From positions 1 to 24,795 of IMG/VR virus record IMGVR_UViG_3300027763_000230: a stretch of 24,795 nt of DNA; one strand, 5' to 3'. The DNA comes from a virus. A model generated the notes under the pieces. That model saw only the letters and a list, made by a program, of their open reading frames with translations, did not search any database and was not told the origin of the DNA. Both the position numbers and the translations under genes were made by a program. Each line of letters begins with the position of its first letter. Position 1 is the first letter of the stretch. This document shows positions 1-23,741 of this stretch, piece after piece.

Positions 1-1399
1 CTGCTCCTCCTCCAAATCCTAAACTAAGAATAGCTATTTTCCCTAGCTGTCTTTTGTCAGGTGTTATATCGTTTTCAGAACACGCGTAAATACCCGCGGC
101 TTCACGTACATAAATATCTTTTCCAGAAGTAAAAACATTTAATAAATCTTTAGCGCTAGAGTGTGGGGATAACCAAGGGTTTACTCTTGCTTCGATAGCA
201 CTCCAATCTGCTACAACTAACACGTGATTTTTAGGTGCAATAATAGCTGGGCGCAGCATCCCTTTTAACACATCGGTAACTCGCTTTCCGTAAACAGGGA
301 CAATTGAATGGCTTCTAACCATCGCTTGTCGAACAGCGTCTGGTTCTTTGGCACACTTTCGGGTGAAGTTATGCAATTGGGCGCCGTAACTGCTTGCTCT
401 GCCCGTAGCACTTCCACCAGCAAACACGAACGCTCCTCGAACTCGTTGATCTTCAACATCGGCTAATTCCTTTAATCGTTTAAATTTGGCTACGCTAGAC
501 GCCCATAGGTCGTCAGCGCATTGGATAACATCTGCCACGTTTGGCGGCACTTGTTCTGGGTTTTCTTGTGCTAAGACTAATAGATTAGCCCTTACCGACT
601 TGTCAATGGAATATTTCTTGACATCATCTTTGTAAATTTCCATCAACTTCTTGGCTTCATTACCGACACGCGCTAACACCCACTCACGCATCTTGGTACT
701 ACGAACTGAGGTAATCTCACCCTCAGTCACTTCAGTTACAATCTTTTCAATTTCTTCTAATTCGACACTCGCGTAACCAATCGCTGCGTTGCACAAGTCG
801 GTGTCAATTAAAACCCCCCTATCGTTGATGCGTTCATTCACATGGTAGTCAGCCAACTCCTCATCGGATAACTGGCGCATGGCTTGGCTAATGGCGCGCA
901 TAGCACGAACGTCTTGTTCGCAGTAAGCAACCATCTCAGCCATGAGCGTTGGGTCGTCATTGAATGTGCCGTCAGCTTTAGGAATAGAGAGCAGCCGAAT
1001 TAACTGACTGCCACGATGATCCTTGCGCATATTAGCACCACTAAAGCGCCCAACATCTTCGAGTGAGCCAGGCGCACAATTAGCACGTGCTTGTGTTGCG
1101 GTGCAATAGAACTGTTCTAGCTTTGGTTCTGGTACGTTGTAATCAGGGCATAAGACATACCAAAAGATTAAACGCTCAAACGCAGCGTTATGCGCCCTAA
1201 TTTGAATACCTTGCTTTATAAAATAAATAATTTGTTGTGGGAATGGTTGACTAGGCACCCATGTCTGTACATCCTCATCATTGAAAGCATAAGAAAGACA
1301 TAGCACCGAAGTGCTAATATCCTTAGCATAATTGTAACCACCATGACTGATAAGATCACAACGGCTACGCGTTTCAAAATCAAGCCAAAGAATAGTCAT
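1..1399 (-). CDS. Family A DNA polymerase (PolI-like), 3' end cut off by the window edge
   Basis: This is the replicative polymerase with an N-terminal 3'-5' proofreading domain. I translated it by hand from the ATG at 1399-1397; the frame stays open for 466 codons to the left edge. The exonuclease motifs are visible: Exo I WLDFETRS (D7, E9), Exo II HNAAFE and Exo III AYCEQD. Polymerase motif A is VVADWSAIEARV. Motif B is reached at the very edge as KRQLGKIAILSLGFGGG, so motif C and the C-terminus lie outside. Aligned to E. coli PolI, position 762 is Leu and 766 is Phe. The start overlaps the stop of the upstream 1396-1722 gene as ATGA, so translation is probably coupled. It is the last visible gene of the leftward replication operon. 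Assignment is firm; the lifestyle meaning of Leu762 is inference. Confidence 0.96.
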   Translation of the reverse strand, partial: MTILWLDFETRSRCDLISHGGYNYAKDISTSVLCLSYAFNDEDVQTWVPSQPFPQQIIYFIKQGIQIRAHNAAFERLIFWYVLCPDYNVPEPKLEQFYCTATQARANCAPGSLEDVGRFSGANMRKDHRGSQLIRLLSIPKADGTFNDDPTLMAEMVAYCEQDVRAMRAISQAMRQLSDEELADYHVNERINDRGVLIDTDLCNAAIGYASVELEEIEKIVTEVTEGEITSVRSTKMREWVLARVGNEAKKLMEIYKDDVKKYSIDKSVRANLLVLAQENPEQVPPNVADVIQCADDLWASSVAKFKRLKELADVEDQRVRGAFVFAGGSATGRASSYGAQLHNFTRKCAKEPDAVRQAMVRSHSIVPVYGKRVTDVLKGMLRPAIIAPKNHVLVVADWSAIEARVNPWLSPHSSAKDLLNVFTSGKDIYVREAAGIYACSENDITPDKRQLGKIAILSLGFGGGA

Positions 1400-1722
1400 T
1401 TAATCAATTCTACTAATTTAACTTCACGAGTTTCACCATCAAAAGTAAGTTTAAAATTACCTAATTTAGTGTAATGCTTGCCATCTTTTAACCATTCACT
1501 ACCCATACTGTCATACGCAACAAAATTAACACATTTATTCCAAAACAAGGTTCTTTCTTCTATCCAATCTTTTTTTGGTTCTAGTTTAATTCGCACTTTA
1601 TCTGCCCAATCAAATGTTTCAAGTAAATGAATTACTTGCCATTTATTACTGTCGTTAGACCAATATTCACACGTTTTACCATCAACATACGCGTGTAAAA
1701 CTTCTGCGTTTTTATGTTTCAT
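1396..1722 (-). CDS. Small hypothetical protein with a phage 'W...RIKPEPK' type N-terminal domain
   Basis: A 108-residue soluble protein of unknown function. The N-terminal 50 or so residues, from MKHKN to RIKLEPKKDW, resemble the start of the protein at 6244-6537 (MKHKH to RIKPEPKPKE). The two look like paralogues of a small domain common in phage hypothetical proteins. The gene is AT-rich compared with the polymerase it is coupled to by an ATGA overlap, and it sits between the replication-protein gene and the polymerase, where it may be a late insertion. About 126 bases lie between it and 1849; I see no convincing hairpin or sigma-70 promoter there, only a possible -10 (TAATAT on the minus strand). 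An upstream AAAGGAAAAT fits a ribosome binding site. No catalytic motif is visible. Confidence 0.8.
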   Translation of the reverse strand: MKHKNAEVLHAYVDGKTCEYWSNDSNKWQVIHLLETFDWADKVRIKLEPKKDWIEERTLFWNKCVNFVAYDSMGSEWLKDGKHYTKLGNFKLTFDGETREVKLVELIK

Positions 1723-2516: not shown

Positions 2517-3638
2517 TTATTGAATTTTAGAAAGGGCTGCGGTGAGTTGCTTCCCGATGTTTACTACCGCTGGGCGTGAATCATCTTCACGAGCCAACGT
2601 ACTGCCACTACTTACTGCTACTACTAAGTCGTCAGGTAGTTTAACACCTAACTTCTTGAGTTCTTTTTCTGCCTGCGCAGGTGATATGATTGACTTCTTA
2701 AACGCATCAATACCAAGATCAGCTAGTTTAACACTTGCTTCAGTTTCATTAGTCCATTGGCGTGTAGCACGCTTGTTGACTAACTTCCACCCCGGCACCG
2801 GCTTGTCATTCTCAAGCATCTGAAATGCTAATGCTCTCAAGTCTGTAATCCATTGTTCTAATAAATCACAGTTTGCTAAGTATGCACCAATTCTCTGCGC
2901 GTCTAATGATTCTAAACTGACGTGCAAAGCACGGTCAACTGCACCAGTCATTTGTGGGCAAGTCGGCTTGGCTGCGCACCATCTGCAATGCTCACCAGCC
3001 TTCATGGTTGCCGTTTTCTTTTCTGATTCGTAAACTGCGTGCTGCAACTGCGTTTCAAACTGCGCAATACGCTCAGGTGTTGTCACCCAACGACGAATCA
3101 TTGGTGGCTGAATGATGACACATTCAATCTCATCCACACCGTCAAACGCCCACTTGGCTGATTCAGTACGCATGGCAGCGGCTGCATAGAACATCAACTG
3201 CTCGTTTTCTTCTACACTAACTGCTACACCATCGCCAAACTTCCAATCGAGTACAATCGCACGATTACCGATACGACCGATTAGATCACATGAGCCAAAG
3301 ACATCAGGTAAAAACTCACCAAAATTGACTTCCGTTTCTACTGCGTATTCCATCTCAAGGTTAGGATCAACTTCTGCTAACAGTTTTAAAGCACCCATGA
3401 GTTTACTGTCGATGAGTTCTTGCGTTAATACTTGGTCGTTATACTTCATACCTAGCAAAGACTCTGGTGTTTTATCCGCACCTAACACTTGTGCAATCGC
3501 ATCGTGAAGTAATGTACCTTCGTCTGCGTAAGTGCTACCCGGCTTTGGTGGCATCTTAGCGCAGAGTGCAACAGATGCTGGGCAATTGATGACACGTTTG
3601 GCAGTCGAGCCACCGACTATAGTTGAATGATTAGCCAT
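2517..3638 (-). CDS. DUF2800-family PD-(D/E)XK nuclease (Cas4/RecB-like) with possible Fe-S cluster
   Basis: A 373-residue member of the DUF2800 family, a phage branch of the PD-(D/E)XK nucleases thought to act as DNA exonucleases in replication or recombination. The expected landmarks are in order: EGTLLHDAI (H45), GSCDLIG (D118), LDWKFG (D131 and K133), and a Q/Y motif EQLMFYA (Q147, Y151). Four cysteines, C19 near the N-terminus and C218-x2-C221-x5-C227, match the layout of the 4Fe-4S cluster in Cas4 and AddB. It is the first gene of the leftward replication transcript and lies 11 bases upstream of the putative binding protein at 1849-2505. An AAGGA element about 8 bases before the ATG supports the start. 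Nuclease activity and cluster are inferred from motifs. Confidence 0.9.
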   Translation of the reverse strand: MANHSTIVGGSTAKRVINCPASVALCAKMPPKPGSTYADEGTLLHDAIAQVLGADKTPESLLGMKYNDQVLTQELIDSKLMGALKLLAEVDPNLEMEYAVETEVNFGEFLPDVFGSCDLIGRIGNRAIVLDWKFGDGVAVSVEENEQLMFYAAAAMRTESAKWAFDGVDEIECVIIQPPMIRRWVTTPERIAQFETQLQHAVYESEKKTATMKAGEHCRWCAAKPTCPQMTGAVDRALHVSLESLDAQRIGAYLANCDLLEQWITDLRALAFQMLENDKPVPGWKLVNKRATRQWTNETEASVKLADLGIDAFKKSIISPAQAEKELKKLGVKLPDDLVVAVSSGSTLAREDDSRPAVVNIGKQLTAALSKIQ

Positions 3639-3720: not shown

Positions 3721-4008
3721 ATGAATGAAAAAGAAATTGAATCTTACTTTAAATGGGCGGTAATGTCATTAGGTGGAAAAACCTACAAGTTTAGGTCAGT
3801 AAACCAGCGTGGGGTTGCGGATCAAGTTGCTTGTATGCTTGATGGCAGCGTGTGGTTTGTGGAGTTGAAAGCACCAAATGGTAGGCTGTCAGAACTGCAA
3901 AAAGTATTTGCGATAGAAATGCGGTTATTAAATCAAAACTATAGATTGTTTAGTTCAACAAAAGAAATAGACGAATGGAAAGAAACATGGAAATTACACA
4001 ACAGTTAG
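3721..4008 (+). CDS. VRR-NUC domain nuclease
   Basis: A 95-residue stand-alone VRR-NUC protein, a PD-(D/E)XK-type nuclease family found in phage replication modules and able to act on branched DNA. The signature is GVADQV (D34), then VWFVELKAP (E48 and K50), then LSELQ (Q60). A TTG at 3700 could add seven residues, but MNEKEIE at 3721 starts the domain where family members usually do, so I chose it; no strong ribosome binding site is visible for either. It opens the rightward transcript from the divergent region and is followed, with overlap, by the HNH endonuclease and then the helicase. VRR-NUC next to a SNF2 helicase is a familiar phage pairing, so the HNH gene looks like an intruder. Confidence 0.9.
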   Translation: MNEKEIESYFKWAVMSLGGKTYKFRSVNQRGVADQVACMLDGSVWFVELKAPNGRLSELQKVFAIEMRLLNQNYRLFSSTKEIDEWKETWKLHNS

Positions 4009-4472
4009 TAAAAGAATTATTTGAATATCGTGATGGTGAGTTGTACCGACGCATTGGTACATCATCTAACGCAAAAACAGGTGATAAAGCTGGGTCATTA
4101 AGCGGCGATGGATATTTGCAAACAAACATTAACGCAAAAAAGTATAAAAACCATCGCATTATTTTTTTATATCATCACGGCTATTTACCTGAGTTTATTG
4201 ACCACATCGACAATAATCGTTTGAATAATCACATTAATAATTTGCGTGCGGCTTCTATATTGCAAAATAACCGTAATGCTAGAACACGTGCAGGTAACAC
4301 ATCTGGTGTGAAGGGCGTTTATTGGTATAAAGCAACACAAAAATGGGGGGTTCGAATAAGCGTTAACAGTAAAGAAAAATTTTTTGGTTATTACCATGAT
4401 ATTAACGTAGCTAAGTTTATCGTTGAAACGATGCGCAATAAATACCATGGAAAGTTTGCCCGTCATGCTTAA
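3987..4472 (+). CDS. HNH homing endonuclease with AP2-type DNA-binding domain
   Basis: A 161-residue free-standing homing endonuclease. After a short N-terminal region (LFEYRDGELYR) comes the HNH core KNHRIIFLYHHGYLPEFIDH with IDNNRLNNHINNLR, then an AP2-like three-strand DNA-binding domain (SGVKGVYWYKATQKWGVRI). Such proteins cut DNA at one site and spread their own gene. I chose the ATG at 3987 over 3975 because it aligns with the start of the related protein at 23268-23741 and has GGAAAG upstream. The gene overlaps the 3' end of VRR-NUC by 22 bases, and its last eight bases (ATGCTTAA) contain the helicase start codon. It is much more AT-rich than the helicase, consistent with acquisition. 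Confidence 0.93.
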   Translation: MEITQQLVKELFEYRDGELYRRIGTSSNAKTGDKAGSLSGDGYLQTNINAKKYKNHRIIFLYHHGYLPEFIDHIDNNRLNNHINNLRAASILQNNRNARTRAGNTSGVKGVYWYKATQKWGVRISVNSKEKFFGYYHDINVAKFIVETMRNKYHGKFARHA

Positions 4473-5802
4473 ACTACGAAACTATCAAGAAAAAGCTGCC
4501 GACTTCCTTTACCAGAACGACCGCGCCATGATCCTTGCGCCAGTCGGTGCAGGCAAGACGGCGCTTACCCTTATAGCCATGCAAGATATGCTACGCTACA
4601 AGTTTGTCAAGCGTTGGCTAGTGTTGGCGCCCAAGCGCGTCTGTACTGACGTGTGGCCGGTTGAGCAACCCAAGTGGGCTACCGATACGCCGATTGCCGT
4701 AGCAGTTGGCACCCCAGCACAACGCTTACAAGCCCTACATTCTGGTTACCCTGTGGTGGTGACAAACTACGACAATATCCAATGGTTGTCAGAGCAGAAG
4801 TTAGACTTTGACGGTGTCGTGTTTGATGAGTTAACCAAACTCAAGAACCCATCCGGCAAACGCTTCAAGGCGCTGATGAAAGTGTTAGAACCAATGAAGA
4901 TTCGTTGGGGCTTGACCGGATCGTTTACAAGCAACGGCCTAGAAGATGTCTATGGCCAATGCAAGGTAGTCGATGAATCCTTACTTGGTCGGTCTAAGGG
5001 CGCGTTCATGCAACAGTATTTTGTCTTGATCAACCGTGATTTTGGTGAATGGGAGCCAAGAGTAGGGTCACTCACGCAGGTCATGGAGCGTATCAAACCT
5101 GCTACGTTTGTATTAGACGCAGGTGAGTACAAGGACAAGTTGCCGCCATGCCATGAGGTTGAACTAAGGGCTACGATGACCGATGACAAGCCGTACAAAG
5201 CGATGAAGAAAGATTACGCCGTACAGTTCGCCAAGGAGATTATCACCGCCGTTAGCGCAGCAGCCGTCACACAGAAGTTGCAACAGATGGCATCGGGGTT
5301 TGTCTATCAGACTGAAACGACGCCGTCGAATACCCCTGGTCGCATGAACGTGACAAAGGTGCCAATCTGGTTCAGTAGCCATAAGTTTGACCTGTTGGAC
5401 GACTTGCTTGAGGAGAACCAACACGCCAATACCATTATTGTGTACAACTACATTGAGGAGTTGGCAGAACTCAAGCGTCGTTATCCTCATGCCCAGACGA
5501 TTAACGATGAAAAAGTCATCGAGCGTTGGAATGATGGCAAGGTTGAGTTGTTCTTGCTGCACCCCAAGTCAGCAGGTCATGGGTTGAATCTTCAGTTTGG
5601 TGGCAACAAGATGGTGTTTGTATCGTTGCCGTGGTCGTTGGAGTTGTATGAACAGACTGTTGGTCGCCTACATCGTAGTGGTCAAATAAAAGAGGTATGG
5701 GTTTACATATTAGTAACAGAAGGTACGATTGAGAGTCGTATACTAACCGCCTTGAAAGATAAAAAGGCATTATCTGAAATAACAATGGAAGAATTGAAAT
5801 GA
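4465..5802 (+). CDS. SNF2-family DNA helicase/translocase
   Basis: A 445-residue superfamily 2 ATPase of the SNF2 type, expected to move along or remodel DNA in replication or recombination. Walker A is LAPVGAGKTAL (K31). Motif II is VVFDELTK (D121, E122), a DELT variant of DEAH. Motif III is WGLTGSFTSNG, motif V HPKSAGHGLNLQ, and motif VI QTVGRLHRSGQ. In-frame TTG and ATG codons occur at 4423 and 4447, but MLKLRNYQEKA at 4465 is the usual beginning of the family and has GGAAAG ten bases upstream. It overlaps the HNH gene by eight bases and the next small gene by ATGA. The ORF is GC-richer than its neighbours on both sides until its last 100 bases or so. Confidence 0.94.
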   Translation: MLKLRNYQEKAADFLYQNDRAMILAPVGAGKTALTLIAMQDMLRYKFVKRWLVLAPKRVCTDVWPVEQPKWATDTPIAVAVGTPAQRLQALHSGYPVVVTNYDNIQWLSEQKLDFDGVVFDELTKLKNPSGKRFKALMKVLEPMKIRWGLTGSFTSNGLEDVYGQCKVVDESLLGRSKGAFMQQYFVLINRDFGEWEPRVGSLTQVMERIKPATFVLDAGEYKDKLPPCHEVELRATMTDDKPYKAMKKDYAVQFAKEIITAVSAAAVTQKLQQMASGFVYQTETTPSNTPGRMNVTKVPIWFSSHKFDLLDDLLEENQHANTIIVYNYIEELAELKRRYPHAQTINDEKVIERWNDGKVELFLLHPKSAGHGLNLQFGGNKMVFVSLPWSLELYEQTVGRLHRSGQIKEVWVYILVTEGTIESRILTALKDKKALSEITMEELK

Positions 5803-5891
5803 AAATTTATTTATTATGTATGGGGTTTGGAATTGGTATGTTTTTTACAATTCTAATGTTTTCAACTGGTAAGTTTGTAATTGGCAATTAA
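5799..5891 (+). CDS. 30-residue predicted membrane peptide
   Basis: A very short gene whose ATG overlaps the helicase stop (ATGA). The product begins MKIYLLCMGFGIGMF and continues with TILMFSTGKF, so nearly the whole peptide could be one membrane span with a short polar end. No function is recognised. Support for it being real: exact stop-start coupling, strong hydrophobicity, and the fact that it closes the gap between the helicase and the next gene. Another single-span peptide (7120-7269) lies in the same arm. It could also be chance in AT-rich DNA. Confidence 0.5.
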   Translation: MKIYLLCMGFGIGMFFTILMFSTGKFVIGN

Positions 5892-5899
5892 AGAAAGCG
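5889..5899 (+). repeat. Partial copy of the small-gene junction repeat
   Basis: TAAAGAAAGCG, 11 bases, is identical to the left part of the 17-base repeat at 6539-6555 and 6829-6845. Here it begins with the TAA stop of the 5799-5891 peptide and lies just before the ATG at 5908, the same placement relative to a start codon as the other two copies. Confidence 0.6.
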
Positions 5900-5907
5900 G
5901 ACACAAA

Positions 5908-6072
5908 ATGAGCACAATAATTACTATAAAAGAAATGATAAAAAGCGTGATGGAATGTCTTGAAGAATCGGTAGCTGATTTACCTAAAGAAGAACGTGAA
6001 GAAGCAAAAGCAGCTATTTTAGGCGCATTTTCTAAAGAAATGTTTTATGGAAAAACAAAGGCGCCAAAATGA
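5908..6072 (+). CDS. Small acidic hypothetical protein
   Basis: A 54-residue protein, MSTIITIKEMIKSV then a Glu/Lys-rich helical region ending GKTKAPK. It is probably all helical and soluble; no family recognised. A TTG at 5881 would extend it by nine residues, but the ATG at 5908 has AAAGAAAGCGG upstream and avoids overlapping the 5799-5891 peptide. Its stop overlaps the next start as ATGA, so it is part of the same translated chain. Confidence 0.65.
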   Translation: MSTIITIKEMIKSVMECLEESVADLPKEEREEAKAAILGAFSKEMFYGKTKAPK

Positions 6073-6254
6073 GTATATTAAAACCTAGATTTGGATTGCT
6101 TGATAACGCATCCGAAGTTGCGAAAGAGTTAGGTCTTAGCGAGATGAGCGTCAACAATATTAAAAACGCTGCGTTAACCAAAGCAAAAAAGATTTTAGAA
6201 AACAAGGGCTTTAAAGCCACCGATTTTTTTGAGGAGAGTAAAGATGAAGCATAA
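6069..6254 (+). CDS. Small helix-turn-helix protein, sigma-70 region 4-like
   Basis: A 61-residue protein. Residues 14-45 read as a helix-turn-helix: SEVAKELGLSEMSVNNIKNA followed by LTKAKKILENKG. The spacing and the second helix (SVNNIKNAALTKAKKIL) resemble sigma-70 region 4, where the recognition helix is followed by a basic helix. Phages often carry such small HTH proteins as transcription modulators. It lacks other sigma regions, so it cannot act as a full sigma factor alone. It is the only obvious DNA-binding regulator in the window, making it a candidate for binding control sites such as the inverted repeat at 3684-3709; that link is speculation. It is coupled at both ends to its neighbours. 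Confidence 0.75.
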   Translation: MSILKPRFGLLDNASEVAKELGLSEMSVNNIKNAALTKAKKILENKGFKATDFFEESKDEA

Positions 6255-6537
6255 ACATCGCGATTTAATTGTAGCTTGGGCTAATGGTGCAAAAATTGAA
6301 AGACGAATATCTAAAGTAACTTGGATATATTCTGAATGTCCTGGTTGGTATGACGATGAAGAATACAGAATCAAACCAGAGCCGAAGCCAAAAGAATATT
6401 ACGATGAAGATACTTTTGATATTCAATATCTTTATATTTACAACGATAGCAAAAATAAAATAATTCGTGTTCGCCATACATGGTTAATTGAGCCATTAGA
6501 TTGGGTTTACATGGGAAAAGTGAGGCTAGAAAAATGA
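6244..6537 (+). CDS. Small hypothetical protein, paralogue of the 1396-1722 product
   Basis: A 97-residue protein of unknown function. Its first 50 residues (MKHKHRDLIVAWANGAKI, then W..........W..DEEYRIKPEPKPKE) match the pattern of the protein at 1396-1722, including the MKHK start, the spaced tryptophans and the RIK.EPK ending. A consensus GAGGAG seven bases before the ATG at 6244 sets the start; the upstream in-frame TTG at 6229 would precede that site. It overlaps the HTH gene by 11 bases. The C-terminal half is aromatic-rich (YLYIYND, HTWLIEPLDWVYMG). It is expressed in the opposite transcript from its relative. Confidence 0.8.
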   Translation: MKHKHRDLIVAWANGAKIERRISKVTWIYSECPGWYDDEEYRIKPEPKPKEYYDEDTFDIQYLYIYNDSKNKIIRVRHTWLIEPLDWVYMGKVRLEK

Positions 6538-6538
6538 A

Positions 6539-6555
6539 TAAAGAAAGCGAGTGAG
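6539..6555 (+). repeat. Copy 1 of the 17-base small-gene junction repeat
   Basis: TAAAGAAAGCGAGTGAG lies just before the start codon at 6558 and is repeated exactly at 6829-6845 before the start at 6848. Here it falls in a 6-codon open frame (6534-6554, MNKESE), coupled by ATGA to the gene upstream; in the second copy it encodes the LKKASE tail of the 6558-6851 protein. Copy 1 may therefore be the remnant of a lost gene's 3' end. Confidence 0.75.
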
Positions 6556-6557
6556 TA

Positions 6558-6851
6558 ATGTCGTTTAAACAACACCCAACAGACCCCGATAAAGTAACTT
6601 ATGTTAAAGCGGAATACGCTACCCACAAAGAATTGAGTGAACCTATAGCATGGATGCACACTAATTCAAAACAAATATTTAAAACAGAAAAGCCTAACGA
6701 ATTTGATTTGCATTTGTTTACCCCACTTTATACACATCCAATGCGTGAATTAACTGAGGAGGAAATATTAGAAGTTTGGAAAGAAAATTATGGGGATGTA
6801 AATATTTCAAACTTTGCAAGAGCCATTTTAAAGAAAGCGAGTGAGAAATGA
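6558..6851 (+). CDS. Small hypothetical phage protein (EPIAWM/PLYTHP type)
   Basis: A 97-residue protein of a type often seen in phage accessory regions: a short N-terminal part, SEPIAWMHTNSKQ, then LFTPLYTHP, then a helical ELTEEEILEVWKENYG region with NFARAIL near the end. Function unknown. The junction repeat at 6539-6555 sits directly before its ATG, and its own 3' end carries the second copy. The stop overlaps the next start as ATGA. Confidence 0.82.
   Translation: MSFKQHPTDPDKVTYVKAEYATHKELSEPIAWMHTNSKQIFKTEKPNEFDLHLFTPLYTHPMRELTEEEILEVWKENYGDVNISNFARAILKKASEK
6829..6845 (+). repeat. Copy 2 of the 17-base small-gene junction repeat
   Basis: An exact second copy of TAAAGAAAGCGAGTGAG. 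It encodes the end of the 6558-6851 protein and provides the purine-rich stretch before the ATG at 6848. The 290-base distance from copy 1 equals one gene unit, which fits gene gain or loss by recombination between junctions. Confidence 0.75.
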
Positions 6852-7123
6852 ATGTAAATGAATTAGCAGATTGGATTGAAAATAATGCTTCTTATAATCA
6901 ATATGAAACAGCAAAGCAATCTGTCATTATGCTACGCAAACAAGCAGAAGAAATTGAACGCTATCACAATATGTTGCGTGATAAAGATATAAATATTGAA
7001 TATTTGCGTGAAAAATTAATTGCGTCAATTGATGATATTAAAACTTTAAAAACTGAATTAGAAGATTGCACTTGTCAAGGTGGACATTCAGAAGCATATT
7101 TAAAAGCAAAAGGTAAATTATGA
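6848..7123 (+). CDS. Small coiled-coil hypothetical protein
   Basis: A 91-residue, mostly helical protein beginning MNVNELADWIENNASYNQYE. Its central part (residues 25-75: MLRKQAEEIERYHNML, then LREKLIASIDDIKTLKTELE) has heptad-like hydrophobic spacing typical of a coiled coil. A Cys-x-Cys pair (DCTCQGGHSEAYLK) near the C-terminus might bind metal with the nearby His, but this is uncertain. It is coupled by ATGA to both neighbours. The family is a familiar phage type; function unknown. Confidence 0.78.
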   Translation: MNVNELADWIENNASYNQYETAKQSVIMLRKQAEEIERYHNMLRDKDINIEYLREKLIASIDDIKTLKTELEDCTCQGGHSEAYLKAKGKL

Positions 7124-7269
7124 AATTAATATTTTTTGGGTTTTTAGTAGCATTTTTTATTTGTACTTTAACCATTTTTTTAACCGAACAGACTAGAAAG
7201 GAAGCCCATGAAGCGAGTAGATCAGTACAAAGCCAAGCTAAAGGCTGCGAAAGCAACACTAAAAATTAG
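7120..7269 (+). CDS. 49-residue single-span membrane protein
   Basis: Begins with the ATG that overlaps the stop of the gene before (ATGA at 7120-7123). The first 22 residues, MKLIFFGFLVAFFICTLTIF, form a clear membrane anchor; the rest (TEQTRKEAHEASRSVQSQAK and beyond) is polar and helical. The shape resembles small inner-membrane phage proteins such as an i-spanin or superinfection-exclusion peptide, but the lysis genes are elsewhere and nothing more specific is visible. Its last 62 bases overlap the next gene in another frame, including that gene's ribosome binding site and start. Confidence 0.6.
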   Translation: MKLIFFGFLVAFFICTLTIFLTEQTRKEAHEASRSVQSQAKGCESNTKN

Positions 7270-7402
7270 ACAGCGTGAGTTTAACATTGTGTCACGTGCG
7301 TTAATTAAAACCATAGATGAAATTGAAATTTTAAATAGAAAGATAGAAGATGAAACCTTTAAGCTGGCGACAATTACTAGTAACATTAAATCAACTGACT
7401 GA
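7208..7402 (+). CDS. Small basic coiled-coil hypothetical protein
   Basis: A 64-residue helical, Lys-rich protein (MKRVDQYKAKLKAAKATLKI, then a heptad-like stretch IDEIEILNRKIEDETF). An AGGAAG seven bases before the ATG supports the start, even though it lies inside the 3' part of the 7120-7269 gene. Its last 53 bases overlap the next gene. Function unknown; the basic helix could bind nucleic acid or another protein. Confidence 0.7.
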   Translation: MKRVDQYKAKLKAAKATLKIRQREFNIVSRALIKTIDEIEILNRKIEDETFKLATITSNIKSTD

Positions 7403-7544
7403 GCAGGAAGTGTTGGAGATGCTCAACGCTGAAAGGCAAGGGCCTAGACGCGCGTCTATTCTAGAACGCCTTCACATGCGTTACAACACCTTGCGTGTAA
7501 GCCGTGAGCGTATCGAGATAATGAAAGAAGCGGTGGCACCGTGA
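7350..7544 (+). CDS. Small hypothetical phage protein
   Basis: A 64-residue protein, MKPLSWRQLLVTLNQLTEQE, then a basic helical region with ERLHMRYNTLRVSRERIEIM. The opening SWRQLL..L..LT resembles many short phage proteins, but I do not recognise a function. It overlaps the previous gene by 53 bases in another frame and is coupled to the next through GTGA at 7541-7544. The sequence is noticeably less AT-rich than the genes before it. Confidence 0.7.
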   Translation: MKPLSWRQLLVTLNQLTEQEVLEMLNAERQGPRRASILERLHMRYNTLRVSRERIEIMKEAVAP

Positions 7545-7717
7545 TTAATCCTGATTTTGAAAGTTGGTCGCATGACAACTTAGTGCAGTTTGCTAAGGAT
7601 TCTTACAACCATCTGATAGATGATGCGTGTCGTATTGATGCGCTACAACAAGACTTGAAGGCGGCGATTAAAGCCTACCGACACATCAACACAAGGACAA
7701 CTAATGAACAACTATAA
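7541..7717 (+). CDS. 58-residue hypothetical protein, GTG start
   Basis: Starts with GTG at 7541, overlapping the preceding TGA (GTGA). The product, read as MINPDFESWSHDNLVQFAKD then LIDDACRIDALQQDLKAAIK, is helical and of a kind often seen in phage small-gene runs (W.H.NL..FA). GAAAGAAGCGG lies upstream as a possible ribosome binding site and resembles the junction repeat. The gene fills an otherwise empty stretch and overlaps the next start by 14 bases. Function unknown. Confidence 0.6.
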   Translation: MINPDFESWSHDNLVQFAKDSYNHLIDDACRIDALQQDLKAAIKAYRHINTRTTNEQL

Positions 7718-7853
7718 ACCCGGATGGAAAAACCCCGCTTGGGCGTATGTCAGAGCAAGCCGCACTAACATTCTTGAAACTTTTAAAAGAATAGGTTGGA
7801 AAGCACCAAGCGAATTACGCGTAGACCCTAGTCCCAGCTCGGTCGATGATTAA
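7704..7853 (+). CDS. 49-residue hypothetical protein (GWKNPAW/IGWKAPSE type)
   Basis: Starts at ATG 7704 with AAGGA upstream. The product MNNYKPGWKNPAWAYVRASR, with TNILETFKRIGWKAPSELR after it, has the Trp, YV, TF.R.GW and PSE pattern of a small protein seen widely in phage genomes; no function is known to me. It is the last gene of the rightward arm. Its final 39 bases overlap the 3' end of the oppositely directed M15 peptidase gene, so no untranslated gap or terminator separates the two transcripts. Confidence 0.7.
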   Translation: MNNYKPGWKNPAWAYVRASRTNILETFKRIGWKAPSELRVDPSPSSVDD

Positions 7854-18426: not shown

Positions 18427-19635
18427 TTAGCCCCACATACGAACGCCCATTGCTGGTCTAATCGTTGAAAAACCGTACAAGATATCGACGCGACAGGGCA
18501 ATCTATCGTTATTAATATCGTACTGTCTAACAATACGCATAGAAATACCGTTATGCACTTGACGTGAAGCCATATCTACACCTTGTGGCAATAGCAAATC
18601 AGCAGAAGCAAAAGTAATCGCATCTTTGTGATAGATTAAGTTTTGTGCGTACTGAGTAGCAGAACCACCTAAGAAAGTTAATGTAGCGCTTGATGCAGGG
18701 AATGAATCAATTGTTGCTAAAGCGTTAGTTGATGTGTACATCGCAGGAGATACAGTCAATGTAGCAGTAGTAGTAGAAGAAACGCTAACATCAGCGGTTA
18801 CTACAAACTGTTGCAATGAACCTGTTGACTGACGAGTCTGTGGGTTAACCGCATAAACACCAGAGATAGTAAACACATCACCAATTTTGAAGGTTGGTGA
18901 ACCGCTTGTAAAGCTGATTGCTAATGAAGTAGCACCTTGAGTAGTTACTGTAGTTGCAACGATTGGTGCAGTTGGAGTAACACCAGTTGTGTGCTGAACA
19001 ATAGACTGGCTCATGTTGATCTCATCAAAGCCGAGTACGCCTTCACCCATCATACCGTTCTTGAATTGACGGCTGATTGTGTCTGTTGGGTTGAACAAAC
19101 CTTTCATCCCTTCAACTAAACCAGCGTTAGCGGCTGGGTTAACAGTAGCGTAGCGTGGTGACATTACGGCAGCTGCTTCGTTTAACTTCTGTTGTGCTTG
19201 TAGCAACACTAAAGAAGTAGAAGGAGTTGTGCCTGGTGTACCGACTGACTGATAAATTGCTTTGTAACTGTTTGCTACGTCAGCATCAACAGATGAAGCC
19301 AATTGTGAAATACGTGGCTTAAGAACACGTTCAGCAAAGTCATCTAACTGCATTGTCAATTCAGCAGAGGTGAAGTTAACACCAATGTGCTTTTGGCTAG
19401 ATACAGTCAAAGTTGTAAACTGTTCGTTGTCATCTTGAACTTGGAGAGCAGCGCCATCCGTTACTAACGCTCTGTCCGGTAGACGGATACGGAGTGTTGA
19501 ACCAATTTTTGCGCCTTCGACAGCGAAACTATCGTCATACTGACGATTTACGTTGCGGGTTAATACGAGATTGTTTTCTAGGATCTCAAGAGATTTTCTT
19601 GTGATCATATCAATCGTTAAAATGCTATTTGCCAT
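18427..19635 (-). CDS. Major capsid protein, P22 coat gp5-like
   Basis: A 402-residue HK97-fold coat protein of the P22 gp5 family (P22: 430 residues). The N-terminus ILTIDMITRKSLEILENNLV, then RQYDDSFAVEGAKIGSTLRI and LRIRLPDRALVTDG, is typical. A Thr/Val-rich middle from about residue 235 to 325 with KIGDVFTISGVYAVNPQTRQ corresponds to the inserted I-domain of P22 coat. The C-terminus ends DILYGFSTIRPAMGVRMWG, as expected. It follows the scaffold gene by 24 bases with an AAGGAT ribosome binding site and is capped by a strong terminator. Confidence 0.95.
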   Translation of the reverse strand: MANSILTIDMITRKSLEILENNLVLTRNVNRQYDDSFAVEGAKIGSTLRIRLPDRALVTDGAALQVQDDNEQFTTLTVSSQKHIGVNFTSAELTMQLDDFAERVLKPRISQLASSVDADVANSYKAIYQSVGTPGTTPSTSLVLLQAQQKLNEAAAVMSPRYATVNPAANAGLVEGMKGLFNPTDTISRQFKNGMMGEGVLGFDEINMSQSIVQHTTGVTPTAPIVATTVTTQGATSLAISFTSGSPTFKIGDVFTISGVYAVNPQTRQSTGSLQQFVVTADVSVSSTTTATLTVSPAMYTSTNALATIDSFPASSATLTFLGGSATQYAQNLIYHKDAITFASADLLLPQGVDMASRQVHNGISMRIVRQYDINNDRLPCRVDILYGFSTIRPAMGVRMWG

Positions 19636-23267: not shown

Positions 23268-23741
23268 TTAATGACAGGCAAATTCGCCGTGATATTTTTC
23301 TCTAGCCATTGTAGCAACTAATTCGGCTAACTCTAAATCTTTATACGCACCAAAATATTTGCGAATACCCTTAACTTGCACCATAACTCGCCAATTTTTA
23401 CCTAGTTTACCCCAATAGACATTTTTAACACCAGATTTATTAATAGCTGAAGTTTTTCGGTTGTACGCATTTTCAGACCTTGTTGCTTCTCTTAAATTTT
23501 CAATTCGGTTATTTGATGGGTTTCCATCAATATGGTCAATAAATTTTGGTAAATAGCCATGAAACATCAAAAATATAATCCGATGATTTTTATAAATTTG
23601 GTTGTTAATTTTTGTAGCTTTATACCCTTTAGAATCTAATGTGCCAGTTTTATCGCCAACTTTTACTCTACTAACCGAAATTAATCGGTAAAGTTCGCCA
23701 TCACGATATTCAAACAACGCTTTTACTTGATCTTGTGTCAT
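23268..23741 (-). CDS. Second HNH/AP2 homing endonuclease
   Basis: A 157-residue endonuclease closely related to the product of 3987-4472, with about half the positions identical by eye. The shared core is LFEYRDGELYR, then YKNHRIIFLMFHGYLPKFID and HIDGNPSNNRIENLREATRS, followed by the AP2-like domain (SGVKNVYWGKLGKNWRVMVQ) and a EKYHGEFACH end. A 17-base DNA stretch, TTTGAATATCGTGATGG, is identical in both genes (4020-4036 and 23698-23714 reversed). Its ATG overlaps the stop of the DUF5856-like gene (ATGA). It lies within the structural operon, unlike its partner, which is in the replication arm. Confidence 0.92.
   Translation of the reverse strand: MTQDQVKALFEYRDGELYRLISVSRVKVGDKTGTLDSKGYKATKINNQIYKNHRIIFLMFHGYLPKFIDHIDGNPSNNRIENLREATRSENAYNRKTSAINKSGVKNVYWGKLGKNWRVMVQVKGIRKYFGAYKDLELAELVATMAREKYHGEFACH

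Follow-up and report, generated by a model that had tools for sequence, protein, structure and literature searches.

What does a run of very small genes at the end of a phage arm do, and do its members belong together? This question is raised by positions 5799-7853 of a metagenome-derived virus contig of 24,795 bp (IMG/VR record IMGVR_UViG_3300027763_000230, hereafter the window), where eleven coupled open reading frames (ORFs) of 30-97 codons, numbered here g1 to g11, tile the plus strand. A first-pass annotation of this DNA had taken the whole chain as one reservoir of possibly new function. In contrast, the comparison with related phages indicates that the chain most likely makes up the 3' portion of an early/replication operon that is directed rightward and built in two layers, a conserved core linked to a helicase (g8-g9-g10, 7208-7717) and an island whose genes are exchanged between phages (g1-g7). 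Apart from these seven genes, only g11, at the far end, varies. The probability of this two-layer reading is estimated at roughly 0.65.

The chain itself is real and coding. On the plus strand, 2055 of the 2055 nt lie within the best ORF chain, compared with 628 nt on the minus strand; in 500 dinucleotide shuffles such a chain never exceeded 801 nt, with a mean of 273 nt. The coupling that had been noticed at first sight is therefore genuine, with the correction that there are eleven ORFs instead of ten and that two short gaps (16 and 20 nt) interrupt them; the remaining junctions overlap, many as ATGA. Relatives are known for every gene except g1, and in most of these genes silent differences outnumber protein-changing ones. 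When this was expressed as pN/pS (omega), the values were 0.07 for g3 (against a close relative of the window, L083), about 0.15 for g2, 0.10-0.47 for g8, 0.06-0.21 for g9 and 0.22-0.29 for g10, with looser values (0.17-0.79) for g4-g6. When only the closest relatives are taken, omega lies at 0.07-0.25 for g2, g3, g8, g9 and g10. The omega of g11 is 0.91 against L083 and 0.23-0.46 against more distant relatives. For g7, no silent change separates the window from L083, and the omega against L028 is 0.37. That g1 (5799-5891, a membrane peptide of 30 residues) is a gene is suggested only by a hydrophobic stretch and by the way its start overlaps the helicase stop as ATGA.

The conserved layer lies downstream of a gene for an SNF2/DEAD-type helicase (4423-5802, plus strand; Pfam SNF2-rel_dom 6e-13 and Helicase_C 3e-10), which marks the left edge of the island. 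The comparison drew on eighty IMG/VR contigs whose helicase is related to this one. Among them is L002, a locus from a 36,140-bp contig that matches the window at 99.99% identity across 10.8 kb of compared sequence and represents practically the same phage. Of these 80 helicase loci, 78 contain g9, 60 contain g8 and 57 contain g10, with g9 always located downstream, at 120 to 2410 nt from the helicase. A separate search starting from g9 led to the same association: the helicase precedes g9 in 76 of 79 loci, and in the other three g9 lies near a contig end.

The products of the core are a basic helical protein of 64 residues (g8, 7208-7402; alignment A2), a second protein of 64 residues with three predicted helices (g9, 7350-7544; alignment A1) and a protein of 58 residues with a conserved F..W....L..FA pattern (g10, 7541-7717; alignment A3), all encoded on the plus strand. 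Several residues of g9 are invariant (W6, R7, E28, R34, R40-L41-H42, R44-Y45, R49 and R52-E53-R54-E56), and its AF2 model consists of three helices with a predicted local distance difference test score (pLDDT) of 89. Searches of PHROGs, Pfam and PDB sequences with g9 gave no match, Foldseek against the PDB gave none below E 2.9, and the significant Foldseek matches, all in BFVD, were uncharacterised phage proteins only. Judged by its sequence, g9 is a new conserved protein family.

The start of g9 lies inside the end of g8, and in 94 of 97 distinct loci the two genes overlap with the same +1 offset. This constancy might suggest that both are parts of one protein joined by a programmed frameshift, an explanation which is nevertheless very improbable and has been set aside. 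In nearly every locus, a start codon, often with a Shine-Dalgarno-like sequence (GGAGG- or AAGGA-like), precedes g9, which would be translated from its own start within g8. Moreover, in MW202483.1 (L167) g9, at 3399-3577, overlaps the helicase stop, and there is no room for a g8 between them. In the annotation of this last record, g9 is shortened to 3452-3577.

The association of g9 with replication genes extends to a more distant phage. The protein AXL3_42 from Stenotrophomonas phage AXL3 is a distant homolog of g9 (profile E 3.8e-12), and its gene sits directly before that for DNA polymerase I. Because the family is linked to a helicase in one lineage and to a polymerase in another, we infer that g9 most likely serves as an accessory protein, either to the SNF2-type helicase or in phage replication. 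The three genes g8-g10 would most likely assist helicase-linked replication.

The second layer occupies the interval between the helicase and g8 (here g1-g7), whose content differs from phage to phage. The best example is L083, which is 91-96% identical to the window over the helicase, the core and the lysis genes and carries a different island. In this phage the helicase stop runs directly into g3, g1 and g2 are missing, and a different gene of 74 codons stands between g3 and g7 in place of g4-g6. Where the two islands diverge, the joints coincide with AAATGA/ATGA stop-start overlaps or with the codon that starts the gene following g3.

Sharing between distant phages is seen in the g2 cassette (5886-6072, plus strand; ORF 5908-6072, 54 residues), a presumably transferable unit. 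Its block 5886-6066 shows 94-97% DNA identity to L173, L224, L225 and L226, and its edges are a boundary-like sequence on one side and the next start codon on the other. In contrast to this near-identity, the presumed major capsid protein (18427-19635 in the window, named by eye) is only 39% identical in L173 (a 35.7-kb record) and L226 (a 24.1-kb record). The helicase has no match in the L173, L225 and L226 records, which may be incomplete, so that this is weaker evidence than the identity of g2. The L173 copy joins this g2 body to a tail resembling that of g3 (ATDFFRESKDE).

Splicing is also observed inside genes. The protein g5 (6558-6851, plus strand; 97 residues) has a modular EPIAW / PLYTHPMRELTEEEI / FARAILKKASEK structure and belongs to a large protein pool in which the constant parts EPVAW, PLYTHPMRELTDEEI and FARAILKKASEK surround varying middles. 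It is a chimera of two parents, in which the left half matches L186 (91% identity) and the right half L182/L183 (94%), with the seam at about 6726-6740, within the PLYTHP codons. Both parental halves are present in L180, in two neighbouring genes, and g5 looks as if it had been formed by unequal exchange between a neighbouring pair like that one. The g5-type tail also follows front parts resembling g4, g6 and g10, as well as a DUF551 domain. Sequence comparison places fusions of a g6-like front with this tail in L149, L208 and L210, and the domain DUF551 is present in the pool gene L172:1788-2249 and absent from the genes of the window. A single gene in L072 (7288-7578) joins a g10-like front part to a g5-like tail. 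Taken with the island comparisons, these data argue that most of the island genes have most likely been drawn from a pool which is swapped and spliced among distantly related lake phages, recombination being read here from the sequences.

Where these exchanges could take place is indicated by a short repeat. The 16-mer AAAGAAAGCGAGTGAG is present in two copies on the plus strand, one just 5' of the g5 start (6540-6555) and another which encodes the g5 tail and precedes the ATG of g6 (6830-6845). With up to two mismatches allowed, 1.34 Mb of relatives gave 17 distinct contexts of this repeat, all of them on the coding strand, and in 16 of these a start codon follows at a distance of a few bases; 0-1 contexts are expected in first-order random sequence. 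The tails of the g5 family behave similarly, as 25 of 26 overlap the next ATG as ATGA, with 24 different downstream sequences. A codon-level test of the tail covered 10 proteins only and is not relied on. Most likely, island genes, and even halves of them, are exchanged with other lake phages at short sequences common to otherwise different genes, namely the ATGA overlaps, the boundary and the internal PLYTHP seam. The boundary, of about 20 nt, encodes the tail of one gene (KKASEK) and leads into the start of the next one. Because one frame ends and the following one starts within it, a cassette joined there would keep its translational coupling.

Several observations weigh against this interpretation. 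The ends of all alignment blocks, considered together, lie no nearer to gene boundaries than do shifted positions (p = 0.40), and sharp ends are restricted to high-identity blocks, such as those at the L083 and g2 junctions. A control 16-mer taken before start codons also had 16 contexts, traced to orthologous core-gene sites, so that context counts alone are weak evidence. The boundary contexts partly share descent, and the descent of one paralogous family could partly account for the conservation of the tail. Nearly all the evidence comes from metagenome contigs, for which the agreement between several samples is the only control for assembly chimeras, and, on the side of the core, the fold search with g9 led to nothing significant beyond uncharacterised phage proteins.

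Some of these points would fit an ordinary drift of small genes, in which short-lived and weakly selected ORFs occupy a tolerant spot and their tails are alike only through repeated duplication of the g5 family. The block ends that do not cluster overall are compatible with this explanation, and so are the omega values of 0.56-0.91 obtained in some comparisons of g4-g6 and g11. It is nonetheless unlikely, since g2 and g3 show omega values of 0.07-0.16, the same tail stands behind several different N-terminal modules, and a near-identical g2 is common to distant phages.

The remaining members of the island are small proteins for which family libraries offer almost no names, in agreement with the initial impression that hardly any product of the chain has a known match. 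The gene g4 (6244-6537, plus strand) encodes 97 residues of an MKHKH..AWANG..YRIKPEPKP family which matches phrog_13152 (unknown function) with E 1e-8 and has relatives in other phages. A helical protein of 91 residues (g6, 6848-7123, plus strand) carries the pattern NELADWIE.. and ends in an exchangeable C-terminal part, CTCQGGHSEAYLKAKGKL, common to L180 and L186; relatives have been found. The product of g7 (7120-7269, plus strand) is a small single-pass membrane protein of 49 residues, with relatives in L021, L028, L033 and L083. At the convergent end, g11 (7704-7853, plus strand) encodes another protein of 49 residues, with the pattern W..YV....TN.L..FK..GW..PS and relatives in L021, L028, L034 and L083. 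The two membrane peptides predicted by the first-pass annotation are borne out by maximal hydropathy (KD19), which reaches 2.16 in g1 and 2.75 in g7 and stays below 0.7 in every other product of the chain. As for the predicted coiled-coil or helical products, the coiled-coil character of g6 and g8 is suggested only by their sequence and by weak matches with coil families.

The helix-turn-helix (HTH) protein anticipated in the chain is g3 (6069-6254, plus strand; 61 residues), a stand-alone domain similar to region 4 of sigma-70 factors, with a C-terminal KATDFFEESKDE. It matches Sigma70_r4 (PF04545) with E 3e-4 and 20.6 bits, below the Pfam cut-off of 24.1, and the PHROG sigma factor with 1.8e-5, and the best PDB matches of its profile are with RpoS region 4 (E 0.001). 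Its structural model is of middling quality, with helices at 14-21 and 25-45 and a mean pLDDT of 70. This protein would perhaps bind RNA polymerase or promoters as a mimic of sigma region 4.

These features bring back the role that had been proposed for the whole chain, that of early host-takeover or anti-defence proteins, with the two membrane peptides acting in superinfection exclusion. The position in an early operon, the small size of the genes, the fast turnover of g1-g7, the membrane segments of g1 and g7 and the likeness of g3 to sigma region 4 speak in its favour. Against it, g8-g10 are conserved with the helicase in dozens of relatives and are therefore better read as replication accessories, and no relative among named host-takeover or anti-defence proteins was found for any product of the chain in the general family libraries used, none of which is specific to anti-defence. 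PADLOC, whose models describe bacterial defence and not phage anti-defence, gave weak partial matches only, none of them credible, in a scan that did not include g10. In addition, no tyrosine integrase (PF00589) was found in ten related records, in which serine integrases were not searched; this suggests a lytic life style and makes exclusion of the prophage type less likely. As an account of all eleven genes the proposal is possible, if doubtful, and for the variable g1-g7 and g11 an accessory role in host interaction is plausible. Superinfection exclusion and anti-defence, for which homology gave no match, receive no specific pointer from these results, and the division into core and island rules out a single functional unit of ten genes. 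Within the two-layer organisation, we therefore consider with moderate confidence that the island most likely holds shuffled early host-interaction or regulatory proteins.

The surroundings of the chain are those of a phage without DNA-level relatives among isolate phages and plasmids, where none was found. The left arm of the window encodes a DUF2800/PD-(D/E)XK nuclease, and the first gene of the rightward arm encodes a short protein whose similarity to VRR-NUC nucleases was recognised by eye only, with no match in Pfam. Between this gene and the helicase lies an HNH endonuclease-like gene (3975-4472, plus strand), which is 54% identical to a second one (23268-23741, minus strand); both could be homing endonucleases. 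The lysis genes, for a Peptidase_M15_3 protein and a GTA_holin_3TM holin, lie on the other strand, convergent with the rightward arm, and g7 and g8 were discarded as a spanin or a holin on account of them. Both ends of a left-arm gene (1396-1722, minus strand) are related to a g4-type protein (L176:1501-1782, E 3e-9), with a weak match to g4 itself (E 0.007), and pool modules may occur on both arms. The few cellular contigs with a relative of g9 belong to metagenome bins mostly labelled as beta-proteobacteria, Burkholderiales or Nitrosomonadales, and because of these labels the host is probably a freshwater betaproteobacterium.

A seemingly uniform stretch of unknown DNA is in this way split into a conserved helicase-linked family, g9, and an exchange island. 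The island offers a concrete case of phages splicing small early proteins, in which the chimera, the segments that probably gave rise to it and a sister phage carrying another island have all been identified. A bolder proposal, for which the odds are low, is that the island is a protein-shuffling device, whose boundary sequences at once supply C-terminal codons, lead translation into the next gene and act as seams for recombination, and that g9 is a new class of cofactor for SNF2-type phage helicases. If this were true, distantly related phages would build new small, coupled proteins out of a standard set of parts.

Several known systems resemble parts of this locus. The host-takeover module of SPO1 (PMC6873191), compared without sequences, is likewise a cluster of many small early genes, while the chain described here also holds conserved genes linked to a helicase. 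The profile of g3 aligns with the region 4 HTH of the sigma-70 factor RpoS (PF04545), of which g3 represents the region 4 part only, with the score below the Pfam cut-off given above. The shuffling of protein fragments in phages has been surveyed chiefly for receptor-binding, lysis and replication proteins (PMC10684548), where fragments are common to otherwise unrelated proteins, some of them recently; in the island it affects tiny early proteins. Mosaicism through boundary sequences has been proposed for lambdoid phages, although most mosaic boundaries show no such sequence (PMC3029335). The likeness lies in short conserved junction sequences, different flanking genes and modules common to distant phages. 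In contrast to those modules, the boundary described here doubles as the coding sequence of a protein's tail and as the lead-in to the following start, exchange also occurs within genes, and the setting is a freshwater host group, probably Betaproteobacteria, in which recombination is deduced from sequences.

The closest protein analogue of the island proteins is Ea22 of lambdoid phages, an early, mosaic protein with a coiled coil and exchangeable C-terminal domains, one of them with DUF551, and with a constant (K/R)GE ending whose meaning is unexplained (PMC7093339, PMC10834534). Both sets are early genes for mosaic proteins with a short constant C-terminus and the portable DUF551, and the arrangement of a short N-terminus, a coiled coil and a swappable C-terminal part may be common to them as well. 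This is a likeness and not a membership, because searches with the Ead_Ea22 profile gave no match for g5 and g6 at E<=1 and none for the pool members at 0.01. A prolysogenic role is doubtful for the island proteins, given that the ten relatives lack a tyrosine integrase (serine integrases lay outside that search). At the 3' end of ea22 in lambda (NC_001416, L229), the (K/R)GE ending is encoded within AAAGGAGAGTGAG, a Shine-Dalgarno-like string after which no annotated gene directly starts, and which is possibly a relic boundary. Constant C-termini regarded as seams, and not as functional tails, could bear on the ending of Ea22 as well.

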